From contig NW_003116457.1 of assembly GCF_000003605.2 (NCBI RefSeq), forward strand, positions 43,899-73,259: DNA of 29,361 nucleotides, written 5' to 3'. Position numbers and translations under genes: made by a program. Shown one piece after another: positions 8,501-27,743 of the stretch (positions are counted from its first letter, which is position 1; every line of letters begins with the position of its first letter). Source of the DNA: Saccoglossus kowalevskii. Lineage: Eukaryota > Hemichordata > Enteropneusta > Harrimaniidae. The notes beneath the pieces were generated by a model that had not been told where the DNA came from, did no database searches, and saw nothing but the letters and a program-made list of their open reading frames with translations.

Positions 8501-9840
8501 ATTTTTTTATCTTTTTTGACTCCCCCCTTTTCCTTATGACTCCAGTCTGTTTCTTAACAACTTTCATGAATTCCACTTCAAAATCACGAAGCTGCGGGAG
8601 AGAGCTAGTCACAACAACTGTACTGTTTGAAGTAGTTTTAATTTTTACACCAGTCCTCTGCAAGTAGTCAGCCATCTCTTTTTTAAATGTGTGCATATGA
8701 TCTGTGTACTTATCATCAACATATCCCTGACTTTTTCCCAGGGCCTGTAAAAATAACACAACACATTCACATATGGAATTATAAACTATAGATTCCATAT
8801 CTACACTGTTAAAAGAGAACACCAGTATTATGTACTAGTTACAAATGCGAATGTTGTATAAAAACAATTGTACACAGAAACACTTGTATTAATCATTCCA
8901 GTAACATTTCACACTCATAATAAACAATATATTATTTATAATATAATATTATAAAATCATACCAAATGCATCATTTCAGAGTTAGCAGCAGTTTCCTCAA
9001 GATGGGTTGTCTCCTCATCTAACAAACGAGCAATAGAAAACATTTGAGAAACCCAGTGGTTGTACATCAATAAACATTGAAGAGTTTGATGAATTACTAA
9101 AATAGTAATAAATAAAAATTTTAACAAATTAACCCCTTTAAGTGAGGCTCTTAATTTTGATTTCAAAATATAGTTTTAAAATGTTATATCATACATATCT
9201 TCAAATTATAACTTCAATACACATTGTGGTCACATCCGGGGGGAGGGGGTCACTGGCCATTCAGTTTGGTACAGGTGTGCGGCCGGGAAGTAAAACCTAA
9301 GACCCCATCATAGACAATTTCCACCTCAAAAACTATACCCCATTATAAACCAAATGGTGATTTTGTATATACCACCAGAGACCAAATTATCACTAAATTT
9401 ATTCAGTTATAGGTTGAATCTACTCATCATCCAGACTCAATAAAAGTACTAAAACTTGGGTAAATACATACATTAAAAAACAGGCCTCATTGCCTGGCAG
9501 CAAACCTGATATTGAACCTAAAGGCAAGGGAATCTATACCCCATTCTAAACCAAACAGCAAAAAATTACGAACCCAAAGGGCGGCACGTCCCTATAATGT
9601 GAATTGCAATAAGTGGGGGGGTAACATGTGTAAAATACTGCCCACAGAGGAGCCACACATTGTACATGGACATGTGGGCGCCAATAATTGAAATCCCTGT
9701 TGTTAGATTTTGTATGTGTTGGATCAACACATACAGTGCTGTGGTACTTGACGGTATACTACTCTCGCTACGCTATTAATCAAACAATACATGTACTTAC
9801 CATCCAGAGGGGGTTGTCCATGGTCTTTCATGCTGGCCAT
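2512..9840 (-). CDS. DTX3L: Gene A: DTX3L-like macrodomain-RING-DTC E3 ligase, RRM lost, repeat-expanded linker
   Basis: Coding exons on the minus strand: 9801-9840, 8963-9018, 8459-8744, 8241-8269, 6899-8105, 5381-6576, 4770-4987 and 2512-2581. All junctions are gt/ag, phases match, and the total is 3102 nt (1033 aa). Domains: KH-like about 33-127; second KH-like about 138-200; disordered linker with a duplicated block; macrodomain about 397-593 (VNAAN loop, HAGGVASAI); minisatellite linker about 639-813; RING 853-891 (CDIC...CPFC); DTC 900-1033 with RGNQP, HLPGY, GTSRRAYLP, WNDVHHKT and HGYPDPTYL. The DTC family binds ADP-ribose/NAD and, with RING, modifies ubiquitin or targets. The start ATG has a good context (A at -3, G at +4), but exon 1 encodes only 13 residues where paralogues have an RRM. 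A splice acceptor (boundary 9849) sits just upstream, implying a 5'-UTR intron. The usual RING His is Asn. Introns over 300 bp: 2582-4769 (MITE and repeat), 4988-5380, 6577-6898 and 9019-9800. DTX3L versus a lineage-specific relative is unresolved. Confidence 0.85.
3485..4003. mobile_element. MITE-like element in the last intron of gene A
   Basis: The ends are inverted: left GAGGGG(GGG)CAAGG at 3486-3500, right CCTTGCCTCCCCTC at 3990-4003. Both are flanked by TATA (3481-3484, 4004-4007), a plausible target-site duplication. The 519-bp interior repeats degenerate GTACAACGTAA / CTGTAAAA motifs and has no transposase. This fits a non-autonomous inverted-repeat transposon. The poly-A run and short frames inside look incidental. 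Confidence 0.5.
4011..4225 (+). repeat. Dispersed repeat TE1, partial copy 1
   Basis: It begins GATGCTGAATTGTTCGA and contains several TTCGA(G/A)TTACG motifs. The same start and internal motifs occur at 12406 in the same orientation and at 13320 in reverse orientation, so TE1 has inverted ends. No opposite end was found here, so this copy looks truncated. It abuts the MITE at 3485-4003 directly. Confidence 0.5.
4765..5067 (-). other. Near-identical tract shared with gene B (penultimate exon plus intron)
   Basis: This block holds gene A coding exon 7 (4770-4987) and about 80 bp of the intron before it. It matches 14616-14911 in gene B with only about ten base changes in the 218-nt exon and a common intron stretch (for example ATAATATCAAACATAATTTC). 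Similarity stops abruptly at the intron on the other side. The neighbouring exons of A and B differ far more, which suggests a gene-conversion tract. Confidence 0.65.
5762..6255 (-). repeat. Coding minisatellite, 27-bp (some 30-bp) units, in gene A
   Basis: About 18 tandem units encode nine-residue repeats of the type (R/H)GDE(HP/LL/DL)QTR, with ten-residue variants containing HRRSDEHPQT. Unit types recur in a higher-order order (HP, LL, DL, then HP). The array forms the charged, disordered linker between macrodomain and RING. Unit length keeps frame. Two minus and two plus frames stay open through it; the plus-strand frames (one reads HHHDEFGDV repeats) are shadows. Gene B's linker lacks the array. 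Confidence 0.9.
6577..6898 (-). other. Intron 5 of gene A
   Basis: This 322-bp intron splits the macrodomain after the PAIGAG loop, in phase 1. Genes B (16026-16562) and C (24405-24535) have an intron at exactly the same codon, so the position predates their duplication. I see no repeat or RNA gene inside it. Confidence 0.75.
7512..7919 (-). repeat. Tandem duplication inside the gene A linker
   Basis: Two adjacent segments of about 64 and 71 codons (7728-7919 and 7512-7727) encode the same succession of motifs: HH(V/I)(D/N)T, SLAD(R/H)KAGTI, ASITG(N/S)MKS, SIPPIG and FD. They lie upstream of the macrodomain in a Ser/Gly/Asp-rich, probably disordered stretch. The second copy has an extra basic insert (RIGEKRKGK). 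Genes B and C have no equivalent. Confidence 0.75.
9019..9800 (-). other. Intron 1 of gene A, with interspersed-repeat sequence
   Basis: This 782-bp intron contains a G-rich block (about 9238-9250) and phrases that recur inside it, such as CTATACCCCATT(A/C)TAAACCAAA at about 9332 and 9534 and a GGGCGGCACGTCCCTATA stretch near 9578. This looks like a degenerate dispersed repeat inserted in the intron. No coding exon or RRM remnant was found here. Confidence 0.4.
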
Positions 9841-10700
9841 TATTGAATACTAATGTGTCATTAGTATATACTTAATATAAAATATAAAAACAAAGTATTC
9901 AGTCAACATTGTATATAAGCATGGTTAGAATAGAATAGAATAGTTGCGTGATCCAGTGTCAATTTAGGAGCTGGGCAATTTGGATTCAACCACGCTCTAT
10001 TCCGATTTGCAGTCTCACCCCCAGCAACAAGGACCACTGTTCTGGAGCAAAATAAATATGAGTGAAAGAGCAACCCTGGGATATTACCGGCGGTTCAGGG
10101 GCTCTGTGATTTTGACGTCTATATTACCCCACATACAAATAATAATACAACTAGAACTACAGCTGCCATGAAAGTGGGAATTATATTAACTGTCGGATTG
10201 TGTTTATATTCTGTAGCGACGAAGCCCTTGAGCAAGCCCCCATTGTGATATCATGGTCATACATAAACTTAATTGATCCCTACATTTGGCATTTACATGT
10301 CCCATACATGTACATGAAGCCTAGGTACAGTTAGCCCTGCGTACNNNNNNNNNNNNNNNNNNNNNNNNNNNNNNNNNNNNNNNNNNNNNNNNNNCTGTAC
10401 GCAGGGCTAGGCTAATGTACAGTAGTCAGTAGGTTGGAGCAGGGAGCTGTAAAAATCTCATTACAGCTTCCTGGTTGGAGGGCCGAAATGAAGACGGCAT
10501 CGTAAACAAACGAAACACAACTGAGTGCATACAGAAAAACGTTGAATTAAAAATAATACTGACCAGAAATTATTTGTGTGTCTGCGTCTTGCAGCTGGAG
10601 AACTGCCAAATCACCCGAGCTGACACATCACGAGCAGGCTTGCACCATGAAGACGGATAAACTATCGAACGACCACCATTTTGTTTTCGTTGGTTCGAGG
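9841..10700. other. Gene A 5' flank with scaffold gap and inverted repeat
   Basis: It contains a possible acceptor for a 5'-UTR intron (AG at 9850-9851, boundary 9849, preceded on the minus strand by TACTAAT), a short (GAATA)n run at 9926-9943, and the N gap at 10345-10394. No coding sequence was recognised. Confidence 0.4.
10329..10414. repeat. Inverted repeat flanking a 50-N assembly gap
   Basis: TTAGCCCTGCGTAC lies directly left of the gap (10345-10394) and GTACGCAGGGCTA lies just right of it, as inverted copies. Such arms form a hairpin, and the gap is probably the unassembled loop or a larger inverted-repeat element. The gap length may be a placeholder. Confidence 0.75.
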
Positions 10701-10742
10701 AACTCATGCATATTCATTAGGGGGGAATTCCCTTTACGTCAT
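10701..10742 (-). promoter_or_regulatory. NF-kappaB / POU-TATA-like composite element upstream of gene A
   Basis: A perfect palindromic kappaB site GGGAATTCCC (10723-10732) adjoins, toward the gene, ATGAATATGCAT (minus strand of 10706-10717) and then GAGTTC. On the other side is TTACGTCAT (10734-10742), an ATF/CREB-like site. The same arrangement recurs at 21834 and 27353. It lies about 0.9 kb before the start codon, compatible with a promoter in front of a non-coding first exon. The sites are seen; binding is inferred. Confidence 0.6.
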
Positions 10743-11344
10743 CACGATATATGTTGTTCAATGGAGTCGACGGTGAGGAGTCGTCTCTTCGTCACGGTGT
10801 GCTTTTGGTATCAAGTTCACAAATACAGCTACCCCAAACCACTCATCTCGATTTAATCGCTATCGCCCACACAAGAGGGATAGCGATAACACTAGAACGA
10901 ATAGTCTGGGGTAAAATACAGCCAGTATTACAGCATTGTTTACTTTGTAACAACGACAGCATGAGCGAATACCGTTCTAATGATGATAATAGTTTTCATA
11001 CCACTAATTAGAGCTCCATAGCGTTTGGGTAAATTTTAAATTTCTCCAAGATTACGGGTTACAAAGACTAAATTATTATTTGTAATATAATTCTGGTCAG
11101 TAAAACACATGTTGGCCAGTTCAAACTGATACAAAATGGATGTAAACAAAACACACAGATTTGTCAGTCTTTCTACTTTCAATAATCTTAGAAACGCAGG
11201 CAGTTTGGAAGTGTCAAATTGAGAGTTGCCCAGATCCACGGGTAACCGGTACAATAAACAAAGCCACACACACAAGTCTAACAGCTAACGTAATTGGAGT
11301 ACGCCCTCATCATCGCGTTCCAAATAAAACGCGGTGAAAGAAAA

Positions 11345-11461
11345 CCAATTGGCTAACAACCATAAAATACGAACGCTGATAGGCTAATTGGTAGGATGGG
11401 GGAAAGTGTCTTGCTATACGTTGCTAGGTTAATTCAATCATATTTAATCCAGTATATATAG
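11345..11461 (+). promoter_or_regulatory. Weak orphan promoter-like cluster (CCAAT boxes, TATATATAG)
   Basis: CCAATTGG at 11345-11352, a reverse CCAAT at 11387-11391 and TATATATAG at 11453-11461 are spaced like a core promoter on the plus strand. No coding region follows, so this may be chance in AT-rich DNA. Confidence 0.15.
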
Positions 11462-12128
11462 AGGTAAATGCAATGTGACAATTGCGTCATTGCATGTAAA
11501 TTTGCATCCCCTTAACCGTACATACTACACCTGCCATGATCATAAACATAAGAACACACCGTGACAGGAAATTGGAGGTTATACCTACATCGGATTTTAA
11601 TCAGGTTGGAGCAGTATAAACTCGGCGTGACTTAATGAACAGAGTAAATTAAATTGTTCATTAAATATATATATTTTATATAATATTGGCGACAATACAA
11701 GTGTTAAAATGCCTCATGCGTACAGCTTTTACTCTTGAATAGTAAGCAAATAGTCTCTGCGAATGCATTATAAAGCAGCGTTTTCATTAATGTTTTTTGA
11801 TCCAGAAAGATTATGAAGTTATATCATGATGTAAGATAGTATGAGCCCAAACAATTCATCGTTGTATCACGCCCTCTTGCAGCGGTTTTCTAACAGTGAA
11901 GCTTGTGTTTAATGATTTGCATATGCTAACCTAAAATGTACCAATGACTCAATATATACGTGTAATTACGCGTTTATTTGAATTCTGAGTTGCATACTAA
12001 CAATATACCCCCCCCCCCCAACACACACACACATTGCGCGTGGACAGAGTTGGGTTACTCCTATTGGCGGTGAGTGCTTTATATGCTGCTATTTCCAGGC
12101 ACCAGGTCTAGAAATGAGGTTAAAGTGT

Positions 12129-12256
12129 TACCTGCGCACCTGCGGGAATTGAGTCCCATGCGACGATAACAACACACGCTAAAAACGCAAAGGCTCATGG
12201 CTAGACGCTTATTTGTAAACAATGACACTCTATGGCAATCTGACGCATGCGCAACT
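12129..12256 (+). repeat. Short fold-back repeat, copy 1
   Basis: About 128 bp starting ACCTGCGCA and ending GACGCATGCGCAA. It shares GGAATTGAGTCCCA, GCGACGATAACAACAC, TTTGTAAACAATG and ATCTGACGCATGCGCA with 23475-23581 in the same orientation. The ends are roughly inverted, which suggests a small MITE-like family. It is preceded by a C-run and an (AC)n tract at about 12007-12034. Confidence 0.6.
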
Positions 12257-12405
12257 GAAAACTCACCCGCTTTAACAAGTTTAATTTCATACTGGATTAT
12301 TACACCCAAAAACAAAATAGCGTGAGTCCATTACAAGTACGCCGAGTACGAAGACATCTGTAAAACGGAAGTTATCAACACAGTCATTGTGAGTTGTTTT
12401 ACAGA

Positions 12406-13320
12406 GATGCTGAATTGTTCGAGTTACGGACATCGAGTTACGGAGACCGTGCCCACATTTAGTAACCCAAACTTTAATTGACAGTTAATAGAGACATTAA
12501 GATGCGCATACGAGAACGGAACGAGAACGGATACGTCACTGCTTTGTGCATGACCTCCGCGCGAACCAATGACGTCATCGGTTGCCTGGTCGTTCGGCAG
12601 TCGTTTTGAACGTGATCAAGGTGACTGACTCGTAGTTGATTTCCGAGAGCTTTTCTCGCTGTCAATTTTGAATAATTTTCATTGACATTGATAAAACGTT
12701 TTATATTAGAGTGTTTTTGAATATTTATGATGAAATAAGAAATATTGGATGCATTTTAGCTGACATTTATACCCACTGAAAACGCATGATATTGATATGC
12801 TGAAAGAGGATTCGGCAAACAGGCCTAGGACCTCAGCAGAATGGATGGAAATAGTGAGAGCTCTGTCAACTGTCTGTGAACTAACTACTAATTCTGATTC
12901 CGGACGTGAAATGACATAACAAATTTTATTAGGTAGTTATTGTTGCCCAATGAGAGACGAATTGACATGGTTCTGGTTTCAGTTACGTTCCCGTTGTGGG
13001 CGCTTGTACTTAATCGTTTTCTGACACCCGAGAACGTAACGCAAACGAAATTAGAACATCACGTTACGTTCCCGTTACGTACGCGAATCTTAAACTCTCT
13101 AATCAAACAACGAGTTTCGGGCAACATAGATTAATTAAATGTTAATTAATTTCGAGTTATGGAAACCATAAAACAAAACCAAAAATACATGCCCGTAACT
13201 CGAAGTTCGGTTAACTATTAATTGAACATCGAGATACAATTTGGGCGTGGTTTCTAAAGTATGGGCGTCATTTTGGTAACTTGGTGTTTTTGTTACTCGG
13301 TGCTCGAACAATTCATAATC
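12406..13320. mobile_element. TE1 copy 2 with inverted ends, interrupted by a nested element
   Basis: The left end (GATGCTGAATTGTTCGAG) and right end (reverse complement ATTATGAATTGTTCGAG, about 13304-13320) are inverted copies. Both are followed inward by TTCGAGTTACG-type motifs and match the copy at 4011. The middle is occupied by the element at 12497-13093. There is no transposase frame, so it is non-autonomous. Confidence 0.55.
12497..13093. mobile_element. Nested TTAA-flanked MITE-like element
   Basis: It is flanked by TTAA at 12497-12500 and 13090-13093. The inner ends are imperfect inverted repeats: GATGCGCATACGAGAACGGA on the left, and GATTCGCGTACGTAACGGGA on the reverse complement of the right. 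TTAA target duplication is typical of piggyBac-type transposition. The 597-bp size and lack of a long frame suggest a non-autonomous copy inserted in TE1. Confidence 0.4.
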
Positions 13321-14124
13321 TCTCGTTTACACCGCCGTATCGCATTTCTGTTGCTATACGTTATAATTTCACGTTCTTCATAGGCATTTCTGTTCAATGT
13401 GTCAATAACATTTAACATGGACATAACAAACAATGCACTACCTTTGGCCAGCAGGTGAAAGAAACGGTCCCGCTACTGTCCTTGGTTGTCACAGTTTACT
13501 TTCACTTGAACGCCATCATTTAAATTGAAAGCAACACGGCAATACAACATTTATTTTGAAAAAAAGAACCGCATATTATTATCAATAGTACGTTACATTT
13601 CAATTAAATGAAATACCACAGACGCTGACAACGTGGTTGTAAAGTATGAAGAACGAATGACGAGTTCCGAATAGGTATCCAGGTATTAGCACTGGTAAAT
13701 CCCGGATAATGTGTTGAACAACATACTAGTATATGATGTAAGCTTAAGTTTCACGTAATTGTGACCCCGACTTTTAACTTCATTTACAGCGACGCCATAT
13801 TGAAATTCCTGAATGCAAGCATAATTGAAAACATCACTAGTTACGATTACAAATTCTGGTTAAATTTTTGTCCAGCTGACAACGAGATGCGACTGGTATG
13901 AATTTAAAGCGTATCTTACGACGATGTAAGTTCTTTATCGTGACTGTACCAGGTAGATAAGACAATATAATCGATTATAACTGTACTATCACAGTGTGTG
14001 TATGTATGCTAAAGGTTATTAACTTCCGGCTATTCAATCAGTTCAACTATACTATATTGATATGGCGCACTATCCCAAATTACAGGACAATGTTGGTTAG
14101 AGTCACACTGAAAGCGAACTATTT
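13321..14124 (-). other. Downstream flank of gene B, candidate 3' UTR
   Basis: AATAAA on the minus strand at 13555-13550 lies about 570 nt after the gene B stop and is followed by T/G-rich sequence. It would give a 3' UTR of about 590 nt. I see no gene in the rest of the stretch. Confidence 0.3.
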
Positions 14125-17100
14125 TTACTTGATCCCTTTTGCTGCCAGCTCCTCTCTAACTCGGAATAAATACGTGGGGTCTGGGTAACCATGACTGTAA
14201 AGGAAAAATCAATTTGTTAAGTATTGTCACTGTGACTAATGTGTATATTAGCATTGAATTCAACAAATGCTAGAGATTCAATCATGGTCAACGAATATTG
14301 TACTGTAACATTACAAGTTGATGACCATTGAGTGTCACATGACATGGAATGAAGTAAAATACAACCGAGGACTGAATACGTACACTGTGCGACTGAAGGT
14401 GTGTGTAACTTGAACACAAGCGTTCCCCTGTTTTGTTATTTACTGTCATGTGTCATCCCGGTTACAGCATTTTAATTTCACACGCTTTATAGGAATTACA
14501 GTATAAGGCATCAGCCACAATTGTCGCACCACTCATTTGTTTCTATGGTCGGCACACACACACACGAGGCTCACGTTATTCCGTCCCCAGTTGTAGAAAT
14601 GTCTATGTGCCCTCACTAACCTGGCAGATCCTCCTGTTCTACTTGTTTTATGATGGACATCATTCCATACAACGCAGTTATCCATCCCAGTAGTCACTGA
14701 CTTCCCTATAGTAAATAACAAACCATTATCAAACGCCCTCTCCAGTAGTTCTAAAATTTCTTTTCCATCTCTATCAGCTGGTAGATAAGCTCGTCTACTT
14801 GTACCAGAATAATTTTGTCCTGGGTTTGGGTGGTTTTTCTAAAGTAAAAAATAATTATTATAATATCAAACATAATTTCATGTGTGCCATGACAGCGAGA
14901 ACAATTGTTTTAAAAGACATTGTTCAAACGTAGAATACGTAACGGTCACAATACCGTGTACTGGCCATTATTGAAACGCCGCGTTCTCATTGGACGATCG
15001 GTGTCATGTGCAGCAACGTTATCAGATGATGCCGTACGAGCAAGATTCTGTGTTTATTACATATTTTCGTGCTTTAGCACGTGGCTTGGGCGTAAACACT
15101 GCGCCATGTTGGATGAGTTTCTATGGCAAGATAATGTTCATTTAATAGTATTGCTGTTATAAATCACCATTATCAAAATTAATCAAATTTAGACTTTTGT
15201 TGAAATAAATTTTCTTTTGGCAGATAGAAATTTACATTATCGTGTGATAATGTATAGGTATGGCGTCATAAAAAATCTAATGTGATTTATTACACGCAAT
15301 ATAGTCAGCGCGTCGTCCTTTATTCCCTGAATATTGCATAATTACCCCTTGTTTTCCGCCTGGAAAGTAATATTCAATTGTAATCGTGCCCTTTCTATCA
15401 TATCCGGGAAGATGGGATTCATCGTCTATTTCAGATTTCATGGACCCTTTGGGTTGGTTCCCACGTTTCAATAACACTATCAATGAACAAAATGGACACT
15501 TCCCATGATTTCCAAAATGGTGTGCGAAACACTCCGTGCATATAGTACTCTGACAACAGTTCATAGCTTTCAGAGAAACGTCATTTTCAGCGCAAATTTC
15601 ACAGTCGCCTTTATTTCTGGCATCAATGGCAATCTCAGTGAGAGAGTTTGCTGGCGAGATGTCCTTCGGAGATGCATTGGACGCCGCGTGTGAACCACTG
15701 ATTGGCGGTGTCGTCTCCATAGCGCCATCGTATGTCTCGTGATCACGTACACATCCATCCCCACTGAATACCGGTCGTTTTGCGGGTAATGGCCTCGACG
15801 GTGACAAACTCGAACTACTGGCATCGGAGGATAGTTTTGACATGGTGGGAGATTGCCCAGTGAATGCACCGCCAAATTCTAAGATGAATGTGGCCGTCGC
15901 GTCGTCGTGTAGGTTCAGTATCGTGATTTCCTTCAACGAAGCCTTTCCACTGTGCTTTGCTGAATACTCATTCACTGCTTGATGGAAAACCTTTGCACAC
16001 GTTTCAAGGGGCATACCATATATACCTAAAAAAAGTATTTGAAAAAATATTGTGTGAGGAATACGAATTTTCATTCAAAAATTCCGTGAAGAGTCTTTTG
16101 ATTGTAAACCAATGACGTGACCGGATATGACGGTCAAACTTGTAGAAAAACAAAATATCAGTAAATAAAATATCGAAGTTACCTAAGAAAGGGTACTAAA
16201 TTCCCTCCGCGTTGTTATTTATTGTTATTTCTAGAGCTTGAAATAGTTCGTCCAAGGTTGCATTTATTGGTGTTATATATATATATATATATATATACGT
16301 CAGCACATACCTGAGCTATATACCAATATATAGGCCATTCTGCTGTATTTTAATTACCAATATTTTAACTGGATACTAGTATATTATTTTTCTAGTACGT
16401 CTATCCATGGAACTATAAACCCGGGTTTATAGTTCCATGGTCTATCCGACCCGTGTGATAGTTTGATTGTACGATGTACAAATCTTACTATAAAATATAT
16501 ATATACAGACACAACACAAATAAACAAGAAATAATAAACGTATAGCAACAAGGACACTATACCTCCACTAATGGCTGGAGTCGCTAGAGACTTGGCTCGA
16601 AGAAATGACGAGTATTTGAATATGTCCAATAGCAGGTTGTACAATAAATCAATGCAATGTCGTTGATCCCCCATGTCATCAGCGTTCCAAATAGGACCAA
16701 CAGCGTGAATCACATGCTTACACCGGAGATTTCCACCAGACGTTTTGATATATTTACCAGTCTGCAAGTCACCATATTTTCGAATATATGCATCGCATTC
16801 TTGTTTAATGGCTCGACCTCCTGCTTTAGCTATTGCTAGCGCTACTCCACCGACATGTTTTAACTTAGTATTGGATGCGTTGACGATAATATCACTTTTT
16901 TGTTCGGTAATATCTCCTGTATAGATTGATATTTGTAATCCTTCCTCGGTGATATAACTCAAGTGCATTTTTTCCAAGCACACCATTACATCAATCTCGT
17001 CCTTTTTTGTTGCATTATTAGATTTTCCTCGTTTCTTTACATCTGTTTTCTTGTTTATCGAAGTAGATTTAGTATATATTGGTGGTGAGTGTGAGTGCGT

Positions 17101-19592
17101 TGGAAGTCCAGGCTTAGAGTGTTTGTTCAGGCCTGTCATATCACTTGCGGGTTTAACGGTCCTTTTCTTGGATGCGCCGGTGTTGCTACCTTCAGTACAC
17201 GAGAAACCGTTTTCATGTTTTCTTCTAGTGGCCCCTATCTTCTTTTCGACCGCATCTCCCTTTGTCGGCTTTCGACGTTGGTCTTGTTCATTAGAACAAG
17301 TAACTCCATTATCTACTGAATTCGAATACAGCAATTTCTCTGTTTCGATAAGAGCTTCTAACTTTGTAGTTTCAATGACGTATCCATTGGTACCGTAGTC
17401 AATGTTAACATTTCCCTTAACTTTCTTTTCTATTATATCTGTTTGATCCCTGGTAAGTGAGTGGGCTGCCCAGGGATGAACCGTTGCTTTAAAATGTTCA
17501 AAAACCTAGTTGGAACGAAACAATATAGAATAGTTTATTGGGCACAGATAGTAATCAGTGAACTAATCGGTGTCTTCAACGTTTTTTCTCTTTACACATT
17601 CTTTACAAACACAGGCACAGAACCTCATAACACATTCATGAATTCAGTACTGCCAAAAGGGAGAGCACAGCAAAAAAGATATCAACGCAATGTATTTTTA
17701 AACAATACGACTTACACATGCATGCCATTATAGAGGCATACAAGATGCCATATACAATAAGTGAAGGTACAATTACTATCAATCTATCTATCCATCAAAT
17801 ATTTTCATTTTTTATATATCTAGATATTGATTTCAAGAGATTGTAGGAATTTTCACATATCACCAATACTAACTACAATTCAGTAATAGTTACGTGACCC
17901 AAACCATTATGCGTTATAAAAAAAAAACGTCAAAAATCTTTTAAAATACCTTATTGTCACTTCCAGGCACGACTTCCGGCACATTTGGAGATACTAGATA
18001 GAGGAAAAGCGATTCAAAATGTAATTAATTATTAACAGTTTTTGACAGTGTATTGTTGTCACTGTCGCATACATTTCTTAAACAACCTCGAGTTTTCTCA
18101 TTCATGTAAGGCATGTATACAGTTGATTTCCTGTGCATTAAGAAGTGGTAAGTATTTTAACTGTCATTACCTTTCTGTTTCTTCCTTAAAATGTCCTCCA
18201 CTTTCTGTAGTTGTCTGATAGTGCCTTTTGCAAATGCCGGTTGTTTCACTTTTTTCCCCAGATTTCGTAGCTCTACACCAGTGTCACAAATGGTAGTGTT
18301 GTGTTTTTTCACGAGGTCGATTACAACACTCGTAAAAATAGCCTTGGTTTCCCCAATAGCCTGTGAATGTTAAATATCAGTGATACTCTTTTGCTATATT
18401 TTGGAGATTGTGTGTCTTAGTGATGAACATATACACTGTTTTTGTAGATTGTCTTCGCCATAATCAAGTTACAGGTTTTGTTCAGTCAGTCGTCTTCATA
18501 TCGTACAAAAAATTGCATGATCCATTTTGAACCACACATTAATAACAATTTTGCAGGGGCGCTGAGCAGTGGCGAAGTAAGCGGGAAAAAGAACGAGTTT
18601 AACCCACCATACGTGATGTTCATGCCGAGTTTCAATAAAATTGGCCCAAACGTGCAAATTATTTTTTTGGTTGAAAATGGCCACCAGTCGGTCATAGGTT
18701 ATCAAAGCAAAAAAAATCGATGTGCACAAGGACAAATGAAAATAATATCAACATGGCCGACAGTAGTTTGAATAACATCTGCCAAGGCATGCATGGGAAA
18801 CAGTTGATGACATGTTGAAATGTGTTTTTAGGTGTAAAATAGCAACCTGTCACTCAAAGGGGAACGAAATGTCACATAATATGGCTTGTCTTTGTACCAA
18901 CTTCAACAAAATAGTTTCAGGCATTTCCTAGAAATGATGTCGGACGTAAAGACTCGCGCATGCACGGACAGAACTAAAACGACACGATTTCTGCAGATTT
19001 TTCTTCTGATTTTCAAATATCCAATCATTGGTAATAACTTGACAATTTCAGAAGTTTGTTCTGAGTATTGCGTATGTATGTGCACACTATTATACCAAGT
19101 TAATACGAACAATATCATTCATTACCGTGTCACATTTGATTTTGTGTGGTGATATCTTTTCTCCTTTTATGTATTCATCCGCATCTGTAAATCAAACACG
19201 AGAAGTGTTAACTTTCATACTGCGCTTGCGTCATGAGCATTTCAAGAATAACTTCCCAGATCACATGACATGCCATGTGACATCAATTGCAGTCGTATGA
19301 TTGGTTCAATTAAAATCTTGAAAATACCATCTGATTTTATGATACGCCGGAACGTATCTAAATCAAAATTTAAAATTGGCTTATGATTTATATTTACATA
19401 TGTGTATCAGTGTGCTATATACGCACCAGTAGGGTTTCCAAAAAGTATCACAGCGTTGTTGTCTCCTTTACGTATAAATCGGTGTTTCGTCGGAAACTTA
19501 GAAGTTAAGTGGCGTTTAATATCAGATTCTTTACAATTCTTGGAATATGTAACCCATACTACCGTATCTTTGTGATCGCTATTACTTGCCAT
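14125..19592 (-). CDS. DTX3L: Gene B: DTX3L-like RRM-KH-macro-RING-DTC E3 ligase
   Basis: Coding exons: 19427-19592, 19126-19184, 18171-18360, 17950-17993, 16563-17505, 15346-16025, 14621-14838 and 14125-14194. Phases close and the total is 2370 nt (789 aa). Domains: RRM-like 1-75; KH-like about 76-138; KH-like about 154-215; basic, Lys/Ser/Thr-rich linker; macrodomain about 323-521 (VNASN loop, HVGGVALAI); RING 609-647 (CEIC...CPFC, usual His replaced by Ser); DTC 656-789 with RGNQP, HLPGY, GTSRRAYLP, WNDVHHKT and HGYPDPTYL. This is the most complete member. By family it should read ADP-ribose with the macrodomain and transfer ubiquitin with RING-DTC. The ATG follows a good acceptor (boundary 19599), so a 5'-UTR intron reaching the kappaB element at 21834 is likely. 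Reading through the intron after 15346 would give a short alternative end lacking most of the DTC. Larger introns hold a 36-bp palindrome and (TA)n (16026-16562); 14195-14620, 17506-17949 and 18361-19125 show no gene. Confidence 0.88.
14616..14911 (-). other. Near-identical tract shared with gene A (conversion partner)
   Basis: This is the counterpart of 4765-5067: gene B coding exon 7 (14621-14838) and about 75 bp of the preceding intron. Only four of the 72 encoded residues differ between genes. The terminal exons encode identical last 22 residues, yet their DNA differs at many synonymous sites, so identity in this tract exceeds what protein constraint explains. Confidence 0.65.
16274..16297. 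repeat. (TA)n microsatellite in gene B intron
   Basis: Twelve TA units in a row in the intron that splits the macrodomain. It is likely length-variable. Confidence 0.9.
16405..16440. repeat. Perfect 36-bp palindrome in gene B intron
   Basis: Each 18-base arm reads CCATGGAACTATAAACCC 5' to 3' on its own strand, meeting at CCCGGG with no spacer or mismatch; similarity stops immediately outside. In RNA it would fold into a hairpin on either strand. It lies in the intron between the two macrodomain exons. It may be a minimal fold-back, a recombination footprint or an assembly artefact. Confidence 0.95.
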
Positions 19593-20920
19593 TATCAACC
19601 TAGCGACAAATAAATAAATACATAAATAGTCGTATCGTAATCATTGAAGTAGTGCTCGTTAGTTGTGTATGTGTTAATTGTATTGAAATTGGTGAAAATT
19701 CCCGACAAAATATGTACCTGTTGAACGCGTTTATTGACTGAACCAGGAATATTAATCACTTCTACTATTTGTTAAATGCTAAATAACAATGGGGTGAGAG
19801 TTACAACAGTTTAAATTTCCCACCTAAGGAATCTGAACGTGTGTTGATTACCCAAAAGCGAGGCCCAATCGACAATCTCTTTTAATTTTAATTTAATTTT
19901 TTGTTAAGTTATTCTAAAATAAATTAATTTGTCGCCACGTCCCTGGCGCTGTCAAATTCCTTACATACTGGGACGTCTAGGGGACGTCATAACTATCCAA
20001 ATATCCAGTATGCGGCTGTTTTTTGTTGCCTAATCTTCCCTCGTGTCGGTGACAGGTACATGACTACTCACTGTTCACTCACTGTTGATCACTGGGGCTT
20101 GTCGACTTACTTTGATGCCCGGAGCACGAAAGGAGGATAAGACACATCTAGAAATTACCCTGATTTTAAGCAGTTAATTACAGTTTAACTGTGTAAAACG
20201 TCACATTACCTAAAAATTTAATTTTTTTTGTATCGCATTTTCTGGTATTTTAGGAATCGCAATCACAATTACATTCATTAAGAAAATGTAGTACAATTCT
20301 TGGCGATAATGTACTCCATACTCAATCCGACAGCCACACGCCAAGTCGATGCGATAGCTCCTGACGCAGAGTGAAGACCATTCAAACGCGTCACAGTCCA
20401 GAAAAATATTAATACTTGCATAACATTGCATGAGTTGAATGTCGATGTTTGAATATGTTCATAATAAATTCAGTTTAGTTTGTTTTTTTCTCGGTTAAAC
20501 TCTTTATAACTGCTTAAAATCCGGGTAATTTTGTGTTCACCCTTCTCGCAATTTGAACTCGTTCTAAGGGTTTCGCCGTAAATTGAAAGACCCCTGTGTT
20601 GATGAGTGTTCTATATTCCTATATTCTATATGCCGTTACTACCCCATCATGTGCGTTCCAAATTTAGCGGGAAAGGGCGGTGTGTTTCAACTTCTAAAGC
20701 GGGCCCGCGCAGGAGGTAAATAGGCCTCTTTAAAATGCTAATGTCTGCAATAGGCCCAGGGTTGCTGCGCCCGCTGTAGGCCCTTGCAAGAACCACTCTC
20801 ATACACCGAATTGGCGGACCCATAAAACAACGAGCGACACCAAAAGAAGTTGCATACACATCAACCATAAGTAGCTTGTTTGAGTTGATCACACTCTACT
20901 TGAGTGCAAAAAACAGAGAA
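19593..20920. other. Gene B upstream region, probable 5'-UTR intron; no gene seen
   Basis: A splice acceptor (minus strand TTTATTTATTTGTCGCTAG, boundary 19599) lies seven bases before the gene B ATG. Upstream sequence is AT-rich non-coding DNA. Short frames here (for example 20210-20431 and 20647-20892, minus) have no recognisable domain. Confidence 0.4.
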
Positions 20921-21046
20921 TGCACGCAATAGGGGGTAGGATGGTCTCAATATATGTCTGCAATAGTGGGTGTTTTTTTCTTCAATATGTCTGCGCTAGG
21001 GGGTACTAAATTTACATTGTGTCCGCAATAGGGGGTACGGTTTGCC
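20921..21046. repeat. Degenerate tandem repeat with (T)GTCTGCAATAGGGGGTA core
   Basis: Four variants of TG(T/C)(C/A)(T/C)GC(A/G)(A/C)TAGGGGGTA occur about 30-35 bp apart, at roughly 20921, 20954, 20987 and 21019. A related single copy lies near 20743. The cores are conserved but the spacers are not. Origin unknown. Confidence 0.5.
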
Positions 21047-21833
21047 AATGTGCTGCCAGCCCTAGGGGCCTATTATTTTTTTTAGCAAAAATGCACATGA
21101 TGTAAGGTTTTAATATAGGGTGACCACCCTGGACTATATTCAACGCTGACTACTCAGTGTTTAATATACTGCTCGGTCAATGCCTGATTGCAACACAAAA
21201 CATCAAGATTATATGAAGTGATTCGTAGTCACGGTGGGTCAAACTATTTTACACTGTTGCACTGAAACGAGGAAAACCAGTCACCAATTTTCTAACTGTT
21301 GTCAAAATGACGCCACTTTGGGAACACTTTGAAAAACGACGCAATAAGCACTCCATTGCGCATAGGAGTACAGGTTATACCAGTAAATAACATCAACGAC
21401 GAATCACCCTCGGGTCAGTGGGTGACCAACACCCCCTCATTGCCAAGTGTAATCAACACTCACTGCTCCCAGTGTTCAATACCGTCTGCTCACTAGACCG
21501 GTGCCTTGACTGCTGTAATGCCCGGTACACCACTGTACCGATACTGAATCTGGTATGTCGCCGCTTTGGCAATCGTTTACCCATGGGACTAGCATACAAT
21601 AAATAGTCCTCATGTACTTAATAACGATTCGGATCTTCAGAGAGATGCACACGTTTTACGGAAATCTATCCCAAACTGACTATGCCCTTACCTTGTTGTG
21701 TGACCTTCAAGCAAACGACGTTGTTTCTATTTTGTACAATGGCCGTAAACGTTTTCAAAATGGATGATTCGATCGTTCCTTGGTTTCACAGGAATTAACC
21801 AGTAAGTTTACCGCACACAACATGTTTTCGTCG
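21047..21833. other. Intergenic, nothing recognised
   Basis: Non-coding, moderately GC-mixed sequence with phrases such as CAGTG(G)GTGACCA. The plus-strand frame at 21418-21606 shows no domain. I see no RNA gene. Confidence 0.4.
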
Positions 21834-21863
21834 AACTCATAAATATTTATGAGGGAATTCCCC
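21834..21863 (-). promoter_or_regulatory. NF-kappaB / TATA-like composite element upstream of gene B
   Basis: GGGAATTCCC (21853-21862, extended by another C) adjoins, toward the gene, CATAAATATTTATG (a palindromic TATA-like block) and GAGTTCGACGAA on the minus strand. Spacing matches the 27353 copy exactly and the 10701 copy within 3 bp. It is 2.24 kb from the ATG, explained if a non-coding first exon starts here. Confidence 0.6.
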
Positions 21864-23474
21864 TTGCATTGTCTGCAGCGAATTGGGTATAGCGCCCTCA
21901 CTGCTAGAATGACCTAGACCTCTGTGTGATTTTAATGGTTGAACATCCTGCTTACTCGTCTGTAACGGCGGTATTGAGTGGCCTACACCCACATATGTAC
22001 TGTACATTGTCATTTGATAAGAAAATTACAAATATATGTAAAACATTTTATTAACCAACTCTGTGTATTACGACAACTGAAGAAGTATATACCTACTGAC
22101 GCTAAATTATAGCGGTTCAATAGTTACATCTGACGTTACATGAAATACATGTACTGCGGCGATGCACAATTGTATTACACGCAATTTGACTGACAATGAC
22201 TGACAAATTAAATGGAAGTTTTTAGAATATTTTATTTAGACAGAAGCCATGATTACACCTCTCCCCTAAAACACACCGACAACAAAATACTTTTGTAGAA
22301 TGTTTTTATTTTTTAAATTTTATACAGCCATTTTGACTTTGTGTATTTATATAGTGTTTTGTATATTGGAACTGTTCGATTGTAATAAATTATCACATAA
22401 GGCACCGTGGGCAAAATCGCCGAATAATGACGTTATTGTAAACCATTATGACCAAGGTCACGTGATAATCCCTCTCCGACAAAGATTATATGATAGCATG
22501 TCTGTTCAATGCATTGTATCGAGTTCTTGGGTTGAGCGAACTCGTGACAGATAAGAGGACCCATTTTAAAACCTCTGCCCCAGTTTTTCCCAAGTTTAAT
22601 AAACATGCTTTTATTTTTAATATATAATTTGCACGAACTTCCAAGAACGACTATCATTCTGGTAGCGAGTCTCAATAAATTTGGTAAATGTTCTAAAAAA
22701 ATGGATATCGCTCACACAGCAGGTGAGGTCGTTTAACGTATCTACTTAAACCTTCTAAATATTGCCTATCATACCTGACACTGTTTATCTCATCGCAGTG
22801 GACTAAACCTTTTAATCACATTCAAATGTTCACCAACCTTATCATGAAACTAATTGTGATCACTTGGGCATTGTAACAAGACGATAACTGGTCAGTGCTT
22901 GATGAGGTCAATACCCGAACATGCCAACACAATTGTGCATGTGACTCATGAATATCTAATGTTTACACACGTTTTTCCTCCCATGATTTGTCACCGTTAA
23001 TGCGTCGCAAAAATTGTTCGTGTCATTTTTTTAAATGGAAGCGGTTATTTTTATTTGACGGCAACATCAATTCAATCGATTCGTCAAAAGATGGCATGTC
23101 AAAATAACATCATTTTGTTCTTAGGCTTCGGAAATACCGGTAGTTTTCAACCACTACAGGTATATTCAATTTTTCGATAGTCCGCGGTATTATAATTAAA
23201 ATTGAAATTAAGAAATCCACATTGTCCCATATGGCGTAATATCAGGGCCATGACTGGGAAGTTGGTGTAAACATTTGGGCTGTGTCCGACTAATTATTGC
23301 ACACATTCACACAGAAAGGGCCGCGCGTCTTTCTTCATAGTTTAACAACTGTATTTGTGGCTACATTAAAATAGTCCATGTAATAAAAAGATTGGTTTTA
23401 GTATTGCAACTAATTTCAATGCATAATTGCGACCTTCAATTTTAGTATATTTAGTATACAAGCAGGAGGGTCGT
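21864..23474. other. Intergenic, between gene C 3' end and gene B promoter
   Basis: AT-rich non-coding DNA. No remnant of RING or DTC exons downstream of gene C was seen, although the highly conserved DTC phrases would be easy to recognise. TTTATT at 23050-23055 is one possible gene C poly(A) signal on the minus strand. Confidence 0.4.
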
Positions 23475-23581
23475 CACCTGCACAGGCGCAGGAATTGAGT
23501 CCCAAGCGACGATAACAACACGCGCTTTGAATTTGTTTGTAAACAATGGCATGCTAAGGTCATCTGACGCATGCGCAGGTG
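23475..23581 (+). repeat. Short fold-back repeat, copy 2
   Basis: 107 bp starting CACCTGCACA and ending TGCGCAGGTG, an imperfect terminal inverted repeat. The interior matches 12129-12256. It is followed by a C-run at about 23586-23596. Confidence 0.65.
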
Positions 23582-23787
23582 GCAACCCCCCCCCCCGCAT
23601 TAATACCTTAATAAACGCGTCACAGTCCGTGTGCAGTACATATGAATTCCGTAAAATAAACAAATAATAGGTAATACAAAATCAAACACGACATGCCACG
23701 ATGACGGTGGTCTTAAACACCTTTGTAACTGAACTACATTACAATATATCTTCTGAATATCCTAACATTCATTGGGTGTCTGCATCA

Positions 23788-26272
23788 CTAAAAGTCAAAG
23801 TCACTGTCACTGTCATCTTCATCTACTGTAGAAATGATTTCATCTTTCATCACAGATGAAGGTTGTTGCAACTCTGGACCGATGACACATTCTTGACTTG
23901 GCATTGTTAAAGGTCCTTTCTCAACATCTAAAGTAGCATCATTCTTCTTGAATTCAGTTGAAGTGTTACTACTATCTGGAGAATCACGCAAGTCAGTCAA
24001 CTTGAAAGGATGATCTTCATCCAGAGGTAGGCCCATAGAAGATATCTCGCTGGGTGGTAATGCATCTTCAAAAGACCCAATGAAACGTCCTGTATCACCA
24101 TCATAACCTGATTGTACAAAATCCATACCTCCGGTTAGAGAATCATAACCAGAGTGCATTGATTGATAATCAAAATCAAACCCTGCAGCAAAGTCACCAC
24201 CCCATGCACCGCTGACGTCGTCTTCCGTCTCAGGGAGGTCTACACTTCCAGCTCCACAGAACTCTAATATGAATGCACCAACAGCATCAGCATCAATGTT
24301 AACTATACGAATTTCAGTCAGCCCAGTGTCATCACTATTGGAGAAGGCTTCTACAGCACGGTGGAAAGTGTGTGCACACAAATCCAATGGCATTCCATAT
24401 ATTCCTATAAATCAATAGAATTAGGTAGATTTAGAGCGACCTGCAATGACTCATTTCACTAGTGAACAAATAAATGACAGATAAATAATTATATATGCAT
24501 GATATGCTTATTTATGTCTTAATGACTGTTCATACCTGAACTGATGGCTGGAATCGATATAGACTTTGCTTTAAGAACATCTGCCGCATATTCAAATACA
24601 TCAAGGAGCAATTTATAAAGGGTCTCTATGCCATGTCTTGAATAATGGCCACGCCTTCCCCACACTGGTCCAACAGCATGAATAATATGCCTGCATTTAA
24701 GCCTGCCACCAGTTGTATGACAGATACCTCCCACTCGCAATTCTCCATTTTGCTGGATGTATTCTGTAGATTCTCTCTGTATTTCGCGACCACCTGCTAC
24801 ACTAATTGCGCCAGCTACACCTCCGCCATGTCTGAGCTTAGAGTCAGACGCATTGACGATGACATCGGTATCTTCACGAGTAATGTCACCAAGGTATACC
24901 GATACTGTAACACCTTTTGCCGTTCTGTATGCCAAAGATAACCGCTCCAAGCATTTGTCAAGATCCAATGAGTGTTCTATATCACTCCTTCCCTCGGGCT
25001 GAGTTAGTGCTTCGGGGTGTACAATAGGCGATTTTTGATTAGATCCCACCAGTGATGAAGGTTCTTCATTTCGATAAGTGGACGGTTTTGGTGGCATTAC
25101 CTCAAGCCTTGTATCATCATCTGTATCTTCCACATCAACTGTATAGTCAGAGGATGATGTTACCACATCTGACATTAGTGAAGTTCCTACATCATCATCA
25201 ACACCACGTTCAAGTGAATTCCCAGTATTTGTGGGCGACCGGAGAAGCAATGCATACAGCATTGACTCCACTTTAACAAGTTCATCTAAGGTTGCTGCAT
25301 GTACAATCTGCTGGCCATTTTTTCTATATACTTTCACGGCTGCAATCTTCTCTACTGAGCTGATTATTTCATCAGACAATGTCCCAGATACCCATGATGT
25401 CACATTTGCTTGAAATCCCTCTAAAACCTAAATCGATAATTATATAGTATGTAATTAGTATCACAAATTCAAATAATTATAAGTGACTTTATTAAGTGTT
25501 AAATAATACATCTTCTGTGGATTGTCACATTCAGTAATCCCAAACAATGATGTTCCAAAAAGATTAGTCAATTATTATTAAAACAAGATTACCTCATCAC
25601 AGAGTACTCTTTTTATTTGACTGGTAATCTTATTTTCTTCTTTCATGAACGTGGCTGCATCTATAAAAGCGTATGATATACAAAAAAAAGTGTTGAAATA
25701 TGTTTATATGCCAAATAAACAAGAACATCAAATCACATCACGGGACGGTGTAAACATTTATATTATAAGTTGTTCAAGTTCAAATGAAATTTAGAATGGG
25801 TGATTGATTACTACACGTGAACATACTCGTCAACAGCTAACAGATGGGGTTCATTTCCCACATTAAGTACTCCTTTGCGTGTTTATGATCTGTAGCACTT
25901 ACAACTAAGTACAGATTTATATTGCAGTCTGATAGGTTACCAACACCAATGTCCTGGTGATTGAAGAGCAGATCGAAGCCGAAGTCCGAATCAGAAATAT
26001 TAATTCAGACAGATTGACGAGTTAGTGGTAGCAAACCTCTAAGCACACACAAACTCAAAATGTTGAAATTCAACATGATTAGTGTTACCTGCTCGTGAAT
26101 CGAACATCAATATTGCATGAATGCCACTTGCATGCGGAATATATTTATATCTTCCACGGAAACTATCTTCAAGGTAATCAGGGATGGCAGCTGTATCTGC
26201 CAATTCTTGCGGAATGTCGTATATCTTCACGACTCTTCCAGTGTGTGTACGATCTTCACTAGTCGTGGCCAT
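23788..26272 (-). CDS. Gene C: RRM-KH-macrodomain protein without E3 module (PARP9/DTX3L-related)
   Basis: Coding exons: 26089-26272, 25593-25660, 24536-25427 and 23788-24404. Phases close and the total is 1761 nt (586 aa). Domains: RRM-like about 12-84; KH-like about 85-145; acidic Ser/Asp-rich linker; macrodomain about 237-435; acidic tail ending DSDSDFDF. The exon phases match genes B and A, but the exons for the first KH-like domain, the RING and the DTC are absent; the last exon ends in a long non-homologous tail with Tyr/Gly/Asp-rich segments. The macrodomain has canonical HGGGVAGAI but VNASD in place of VNA(A/S)N, so ADP-ribose hydrolysis may be weak while binding is kept. It may act as an adaptor for the ligases encoded next door. 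A strong acceptor (boundary 26282) precedes the ATG by ten bases. Introns: 24405-24535, 25428-25592 and 25661-26088, nothing notable. Confidence 0.85.
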
Positions 26273-27352
26273 ACTCGTTCACCTGTTATTAAAATAAAAA
26301 TATGTGTACTCATAAGAATCATATAATTCAGTAAGACATTATAGATATTTATATTATTCAAGTTGCTAAATGTTTTAAATGATCAATTACTAAATATCTT
26401 GTAATCAAGATTATGGTTATTATAAATTGTGTATAATGAAAAGTGATACCATGTTTTAGTATATGTCAGCATACAAAACATTGACATAAATGATGTGCAA
26501 CATGCAGTACCACATGTTACACAATCAATCAGGCTATGCACGAACAAACGTCCAATTTGTTGTCAGGTTGAAGAGTTGAAAACTGCGCGAGTGTGTGTGT
26601 TGGACGTACGTGGAGGTGGGGGGGGGGTACCTATTTACAAGCAATGCTTGACATTATAGCTAAATGAGTGAATATATTTTTGAACATGACCATTTACATA
26701 AAATTGATTTGCAGAATACAGATTCGATAATCGGACATAGAAATACACATTTTCAGATGTTCGGCATAATGTTGTCATCATTAGGATATTCATGATACTG
26801 CCTGAAAATTACGTTACAAGTCAATATGTATACTTCCAAGTAAACTTACACTAAATGAAGAGACATAAACCATATATATAACATAAATATGTCATTTGTC
26901 GACTATATTTGAGCACGAGACTATCGGAACGAGCACTAATAAATACTTCCGGGTTCACCAAGGTCGGCTGCTTTATTACAACGGATTTATAATACTGTTA
27001 CAGTGTGTATAAATACTCGCCGGCAATCTTAATACATCCTGTATGGGACACAAACGTTTTAATTTATATAATTTAAGTGAAACATGGCTTTAAATATACA
27101 TACATACTGCCATGGATATGCTGACATTATGCCGAGCCTCCGTTCAACAGTGACTCCGAGGCTGCGCTGTTCACTTACCTTATACAGAGTGCGTGCTTAA
27201 TTTGACGCTTGTTGTAATAAGCCGGACTGCTGTTGAAATAATATAAAATGTTATACGTGCTTACGTAATACGAGGAATTGTAACGCTGGCCCTGGAATTA
27301 CCCATTTGCCAGTGGAAAAACAACAATTCCATCATATGTCATCTTTTCTTCG
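26273..27352. other. Upstream region of gene C, probable 5'-UTR intron
   Basis: It starts with the splice acceptor (TTTTATTTTAATAACAG on the minus strand). It contains a (GT)n and G-run around 26590-26627 and AT-rich DNA. No coding exon was recognised. It is part of the 1.69-kb space between the divergent start codons of genes C and D. Confidence 0.45.
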
Positions 27353-27382
27353 AAGTCATGCATATTCATAAGGGACTTCCCC
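27353..27382 (-). promoter_or_regulatory. NF-kappaB / POU-TATA-like composite element between genes C and D
   Basis: GGGACTTCCC (27372-27381, fits GGGRNWYYCC, extended by a C) adjoins ATGAATATGCAT and then GACTTCGAAGAA on the minus strand. It is the third copy of the arrangement at 10701 and 21834 and is oriented toward gene C. It lies about 590 bp before the gene D ATG, so it could serve both genes. Confidence 0.6.
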
Positions 27383-27743
27383 GAAGTTCATTCAGCTGAC
27401 GCAAAGGTTGTCTGTAAAACCCGGAACAACAACCATAATGCATACAAAAAACGGAATTATTATTTAATTGGCACATTCTTACAATTCTTATCCCCCATCG
27501 GAATGCGTTGGTAATAATTATTGTTACATGTTTTTAGGTTTACTATATTGACGGTGATAGTAAAGGATATATTATAAGGTACAGAGCTGCTGTTCGAACG
27601 TACGTTTTCAGCCAGGCGAGCGCAGTTTTCCAGTCCCAGCTCCATGTTTTGTAGATACCCGATGTTGATGTAATAACGTTCCCACAGTCCTCTGCGCGCA
27701 ACAATGGGTTTTTTGCAGTGAGGTAAAAATAGCACACATTATT

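Follow-up and report, generated by a model that had tools for sequence, protein, structure and literature searches.

A putative kappaB and GAS-type composite element recurs upstream of genes in a PARP14/DTX3L-like cluster of the hemichordate Saccoglossus kowalevskii

Introduction

What is a stretch of 36-39 bp doing above each of three tandem genes, in the same order and orientation each time? The question arises in 29,361 nucleotides of the genome of the hemichordate Saccoglossus kowalevskii (positions 43,899-73,259 of contig NW_003116457.1, hereafter C1003), which we call the window; positions given without a contig name are those of the window. A first-pass annotation had noted that a kappaB site, an AT-rich block and some shorter motifs recur upstream of three minus-strand genes (g1, g2 and g3), and had proposed a shared, Rel-inducible core promoter duplicated with the genes. 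The element was re-examined in the window and in the 572-Mb assembly (572,110,611 bp). We propose, with a probability of roughly 0.7, that it is a promoter-proximal composite of a kappaB site and a STAT site of the gamma-activated site (GAS) type, through which Rel and STAT would control a PARP14/DTX3L cluster of invertebrate type.

Make-up of the composite element

Read toward the gene, the element consists of GGGAA(T/G)TCCC, a gap of 5, 2 and 2 bp in copies 1, 2 and 3, respectively, a 12-bp AT-rich middle block, AT(G/A)AATAT(G/T)(C/T)AT, and then GA(G/C) and TTCNNNGAA. All copies are on the minus strand. Copy 1, upstream of g1 (10694-10732), features a kappaB site at 10723-10732, a near-palindromic block at 10706-10717 and the STAT/GAS-type site TTCCTCGAA at 10694-10702. 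Copy 2, upstream of g2 (21827-21862), has its kappaB site at 21853-21862, a fully palindromic block at 21839-21850 and TTCGACGAA at 21827-21835. In copy 3, upstream of g3 (27346-27381), the kappaB site is at 27372-27381, the near-palindrome at 27358-27369 and TTCGAAGAA at 27346-27354. The kappaB letters are GGGAATTCCC in copies 1 and 2 and GGGACTTCCC (on the plus strand) in copy 3, and the blocks read ATGCATATTCAT (on the plus strand) in copies 1 and 3 and ATAAATATTTAT in copy 2. When the window sequence was re-read, the letters and positions that the first-pass annotation had given proved correct, as did its account of order, orientation and spacing, which is the same in two copies and 3 bp off in the third.

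The same annotation had recorded GA(G/C)TTC with a nearby CGAA or GAAGAA. These pieces are present and, read further, form a complete TTCNNNGAA in all three copies. TTCNNNGAA, a perfect palindrome of the STAT/GAS type, is the consensus of STAT sites, and its three inner bases differ from copy to copy (CTC, GAC and GAA). In copy 3, another TTCNNNGAA, at 27377-27385, overlaps the kappaB site. The three window copies, as well as a copy upstream of a PARP14-like gene described below, match the kappaB consensus GGGRNWYYCC, as printed in the available part of PMC6242948. Further GGGRNNYYCC places in the window are absent from the matches listed, in line with the first-pass annotation, in which no other copy had been seen in the window. 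Structured RNA was considered and rejected, no Rfam match being found at the gathering threshold.

Frequency of the element in the window and in the genome

In the window, GGGANNTCCC occurs three times; 400 dinucleotide shuffles contain 0.13 on average and 2 at most. A GGGANNTCCC with TTCNNNGAA no more than 40 bp further on is likewise observed three times, and here the 400 shuffles give a mean of 0.0025 and a maximum of 1. TTCNNNGAA alone is common, since 14 are found in the window versus a shuffle average of 8.8.

Genome-wide pattern scans, which pass over simple repeats and words of very high frequency, located the kappaB site plus palindrome (GGGAANTCCCN{0,12}ATNAATATNNATGA) at three places in 572 Mb, all of them in the window, and at none with the backwards control. 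The many unrelated places that would have spoken against a promoter shared by these genes were thus not encountered. A looser pattern, kappaB-N8..38-TTCNNNGAA, is found at 12 places (backwards control, 1), namely the three window copies and nine others. Because the pattern was derived from the window copies, only the other nine test it. One of these nine lies in the same 129-kb interval, where area alone would predict about 0.002 (9 x 129,260 / 572,110,611); the by-area figure for all twelve places, 0.0027, overstates the surprise of four in twelve. With the kappaB site turned round, 10 places were found (backwards control, 2), five of them in common with the preceding scan, so that 17 distinct places are known over both scans. 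Two of the 10 are in the cluster, and both had already been counted.

The palindrome and TTCNNNGAA were also tried as a unit, which was rejected as unspecific when loosened. At zero mismatch the unit is found at four places, three in the window and one above a BTB gene; at up to one mismatch, the places number 48 versus 4 in the backwards control, and 6 of the 48 belong to one array on contig C4158. A pattern without the second half of TTCNNNGAA returned four places, two in the window, the BTB gene and one on contig C4559 that has no complete site. At C4559:270544-270561, two facing copies of CTCATGAATATGCAT lie within 60 bp, with no adjoining TTCNNNGAA.

Age of the genes and decay of the flanks

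Recent duplication is ruled out as the cause of this likeness by saturated silent sites and by flanks that cannot be aligned. The gene copies are old: the macrodomains of g1-g3 share 48-50% identity, and identity at their third codon positions is 38-42%. Silent distances either are saturated or could not be computed; one method yielded 2.2 for a single pair and nothing for the other two, and maximum likelihood gave 3.3 to 22.8. In a seven-row tree, g1-g3 are grouped with support of 91/92, a grouping still drawn as open by the program.

Flanks were compared by local alignment over 600 bp upstream and 400 bp downstream of the kappaB site, with 300 shuffles per pair. In every pair, the highest-scoring local alignment falls on the element itself, and the flanks do not align. 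Smith-Waterman scores reach 46 for copies 2 and 3 (shuffle maximum, 30) and 36 for copies 1 and 3 (shuffle maximum, 29). BLASTN recovered the element for copies 1 and 2 (E 8e-4) and copies 1 and 3 (E 7e-5), the latter pair yielding one other weak match (E 0.035). Since silent sites are saturated and flanks do not align, the element has probably been preserved by selection and not copied recently. The view that it was duplicated with the genes is therefore incomplete, as the flanks decayed and the element did not, and a PARP14-like neighbour, a member of another family, carries a kappaB-STAT pair as well.

Position relative to the predicted gene starts

The predicted ATGs of g1, g2 and g3 (9840, 19592 and 26272, respectively) are in exon 2. 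Upstream, the predicted non-coding exon 1 of g2 ends at 21692 (minus strand), at a donor reading AAG/GTAAGG, 171 bp below the start of the kappaB site; that of g3 ends at 27179 (minus strand), at AAG/GTAAGT, 203 bp below it. The minus strand of the window contains two instances of AAGGTAAG, one at g2 and one at g3. Both predicted donors fit a non-coding first exon starting just below the element. Approximately 0.3 kb downstream of copy 1 there is a gap of 50 N (10345-10394), which, by eye, sits between inverted copies of a sequence of about 13 bases; the assembly is possibly wrong at this point for that reason.

Genes of the cluster and a fourth copy

The three genes are DTX3L-like, with RING and Deltex-C parts in two of them. 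Gene g1 (2512-9840, minus strand) contains a macrodomain open reading frame (ORF) at 6867-8120, a RING finger and the start of the Deltex C-terminal domain (DTC) at 5369-6622, a DTC exon at about 4745-4987 and a last exon at about 2512-2600. Gene g2 (14125-19592, minus strand) has the same parts at 16384-17505, 15277-16074, 14533-14838 and about 14125-14205, respectively. The exon ends were set by eye in both genes. Each protein features a macrodomain, a RING-like finger and then the DTC, the arrangement of a DTX3L-type E3; the DTC is above the Pfam cut-off, and the RING-type matches are below theirs. The macro ORF of g2, the one macro ORF searched, has PARP14 and PARP9 as its nearest solved structures, and the best solved match of the g2 RING-DTC exon is DTX3L (E 1.6e-5). 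The linker of g1, open from the macrodomain to the RING finger, contains a tandem repeat at 5760-6307 (27-bp unit, about 20 copies).

The third gene, g3 (23788-26272, minus strand), is a macrodomain paralogue, with the macrodomain at 24519-25427 and a C-terminal exon at 23788-24411. No Pfam RING or DTC match was obtained in this last exon, and g3 is not classed as a DTX3L-type E3. The protein ends in an acidic DSDSDFDF tail.

The g1 and g2 genes share a Deltex-C exon together with about 80 bp of intron sequence (4764-5067 and 14615-14911; 304 bp) at 93% DNA identity, compared with 47-53% protein identity in the macro and RING parts. Gene conversion at this exon is likely on that ground.

The next 117 kb hold the DTX-like genes g4 and g5 (minus strand) and g6 (plus strand), as well as a PARP14-like gene (minus strand, C1003:167-184 kb). 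In the latter, RRM_PARP14_3, KH_PARP14_2, Macro and PARP domains are above Pfam cut-offs in separate minus-strand exons that were scanned apart; with further macro pieces detected by similarity, the gene has the domain content of the PARP14 family. Its first exon is RRM-like, below cut-off. The PARP14-like gene and g6 are divergent (C1003:183.5-190 kb).

The place outside the window that lies in the 129-kb interval belongs to this gene. The fourth copy is GGGAAATCCC-N21-TTCGCCGAA, on the minus strand at C1003:183813-183852. It stops 112 bp short of the predicted ATG and has the same order and orientation as the copies of g1-g3; the macro ORF of g6 starts about 4.3 kb from it.

As to the factors, at least six exon-sized matches to the Rel domain are present on two contigs of the genome, and at least one exon matches the STAT linker family PF21354 (E 7.6e-25); both results suit a non-vertebrate animal.

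Proposed mechanism and evidence against it

The proposal rests on the letters, order and orientation of the element, on its near-uniqueness and the decay of its flanks, on the domain content of the genes and on the Rel-domain and STAT sequences of the genome. From these we infer that Rel and STAT bind the element, that transcription starts close by and that the genes are inducible and co-regulated. A Rel/NF-kappaB dimer would occupy GGGAA(T/G)TCCC, and a STAT dimer would occupy TTCNNNGAA, 17 or 20 bp nearer the gene. The palindrome or near-palindrome of g1-g3, whose spacing from the STAT site is constant, might accommodate either a third factor or the basal transcription machinery. The transcription start would be a short way downstream, within the predicted non-coding first exon. 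Danger signals acting through Rel and cytokine signals acting through JAK/STAT would jointly switch on macrodomain-bearing Deltex-type ubiquitin ligases, and the same two signals would switch on the PARP14-like ADP-ribosyltransferase of the cluster. That all three genes share an upstream element with a Rel-type site, as first proposed, is well supported. The third module, which the first-pass annotation had not named, is a STAT/GAS-type site, and this makes a STAT and NF-kappaB composite the likely logic in place of a Rel-inducible core promoter.

Several observations weigh against this proposal. The Smith-Waterman score of copies 1 and 2 (32) is no better than that of the best shuffle (32), and for copies 2 and 3 the element is missing from the BLASTN matches listed, although Smith-Waterman recovered it. 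No consensus donor is found within 700 bp below copy 1. The fourth copy has no palindrome, and its STAT site provides no independent support, because the search pattern demands TTCNNNGAA; the independent part of this copy is its place and orientation. No composite was found at g4, g5 or g6 in the sequence read, a search limited by the N runs of the cluster region (7.4, 2.1, 11.1 and 8.6 kb). Eight of the 12 kappaB-N8..38-TTCNNNGAA places are on other contigs, and the places read are those in the cluster. A BTB-BACK gene has ATNAATATNNATGANTTCNNNGAA at C3479:24692-24715 (plus strand), 458 bp above its predicted ATG and without a kappaB site; this is the sole other zero-mismatch ATNAATATNNATGANTTCNNNGAA among the genome matches listed. 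The STAT DNA-binding family PF02864 had no match in the genome, a result that does not show absence. Finally, the PARP14 homologue of Aplysia falls in a different co-expression module from DTX3L, according to the available part of PMC8195618.

Alternative explanations

An inducible core promoter driven by Rel alone, made of the kappaB site and a TATA-like block, with TTCNNNGAA incidental or serving another purpose, seems unlikely to us. The middle block is AT-rich and lies above the likely first exon, as such a promoter would have it. TATA boxes read TATAWAAR about 30 bp above the start, and by eye the block is TATA-like in copy 2 only, ATGAATATGCAT in copies 1 and 3 being a poor TATA box. Moreover, TTCNNNGAA is present in all three copies, with variation confined to the inner three bases, as a STAT site allows, and the middle of the PARP14-like copy is not TATA-like, although TTCNNNGAA was part of the pattern that retrieved this copy.

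We give less credence still to a POU-centred explanation, in which the block is a MORE-type site whose POU dimer sets cell-type expression, with the kappaB site as a helper. The MORE palindrome, a site for POU dimers, is ATGCATATGCAT. ATGAATATGCAT of copies 1 and 3 departs from it by a single mismatch in 12, and the block plus TTCNNNGAA is also found above the BTB gene; however, ATAAATATTTAT of copy 2 has four mismatches in 12, and the PARP14-like copy has no block at all. That gene conversion keeps the promoters alike without any function is very improbable, for although conversion seems active in the cluster, as the Deltex-C exon of g1 and g2 indicates, flanks that are unaligned on both sides would require the tracts at each of the three genes to be no longer than about 40 bp.

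Comparison with known systems

The proposed GAS/kappaB composite has a counterpart in the human IRF-1 promoter, which reportedly contains a composite element of this kind (to go by the title of work by Pine from 1997). To the extent that a title allows, the two are alike in joining a STAT (GAS) site to a kappaB site, through which two pathways induce an immune gene together in the human case and would do so in the hemichordate. They differ in that the putative hemichordate element has its kappaB and GAS sites in a single order, separated by 17-21 bp that in three copies include a palindromic block, and in that it is repeated upstream of several genes in the same cluster. In the available part of PMC6242948, synergy genes such as Nos2 and Il6 need STAT complexes and NF-kappaB together, ISGF3 acting with NF-kappaB. 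The two-signal logic would be the same here, whereas the sites are placed within one 36-39 bp element and feature a GAS-type palindrome.

In mammals, PARP9, DTX3L and PARP14 are interferon-induced antiviral genes. The bidirectional promoter of DTX3L and PARP9 is said to respond to gamma interferon (Juszczynski, 2006, by its title). The accessible portions of two sources describe human DTX3L and the macrodomain ARTDs as one conserved cluster with a bidirectional DTX3L/ARTD9 promoter (PMC4070648), and DTX3L and PARP9 as sharing a bidirectional promoter (PMC13224862). The hemichordate cluster resembles the human PARP9/DTX3L/PARP15/PARP14 cluster in that Deltex-type E3 genes lie beside a PARP14-like gene, with macrodomains of the PARP14/9 type and immune-type promoter sites; the likeness is one of content. 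The PARP14-like gene and g6 point apart, as do human PARP9 and DTX3L. In contrast to the human cluster, the macrodomain and the Deltex-type RING-DTC are combined in one gene, and five DTX-like genes are on one strand, three of them with a one-sided element of their own.

PARP9/DTX3L enhance STAT1 binding at interferon-stimulated response elements and GAS elements, as stated in the available part of PMC9087173. In Aplysia, the DTX3L homologue is co-expressed in one module with STAT5B and IRF homologues (PMC8195618, in the part available). The human and Aplysia literature fits a composite working through Rel and STAT by analogy, short of proof. Among the literature matches listed for an invertebrate PARP14/DTX3L cluster or a STAT/kappaB composite in invertebrates, none describes such an element, and only PMC8195618 is relevant; the available parts of PMC4676894 and PMC8424196 contain no promoter detail.

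Implications

It is conceivable, although we hold this only tentatively, that control of the PARP14/DTX3L module by STAT and NF-kappaB through a GAS/kappaB composite predates vertebrate interferon. An invertebrate PARP14-DTX3L cluster would then have the wiring of an interferon-stimulated set, and its rigid Rel-palindrome-STAT element would have outlasted the saturation of the genes. The shortness of the element, its repetition and its near-uniqueness in the genome make the idea directly testable. Immune control of the PARP14/DTX3L gene set may be old, and if this host, assumed to be without interferon, drives the module via a joined STAT-kappaB element, such wiring would have preceded interferon itself.

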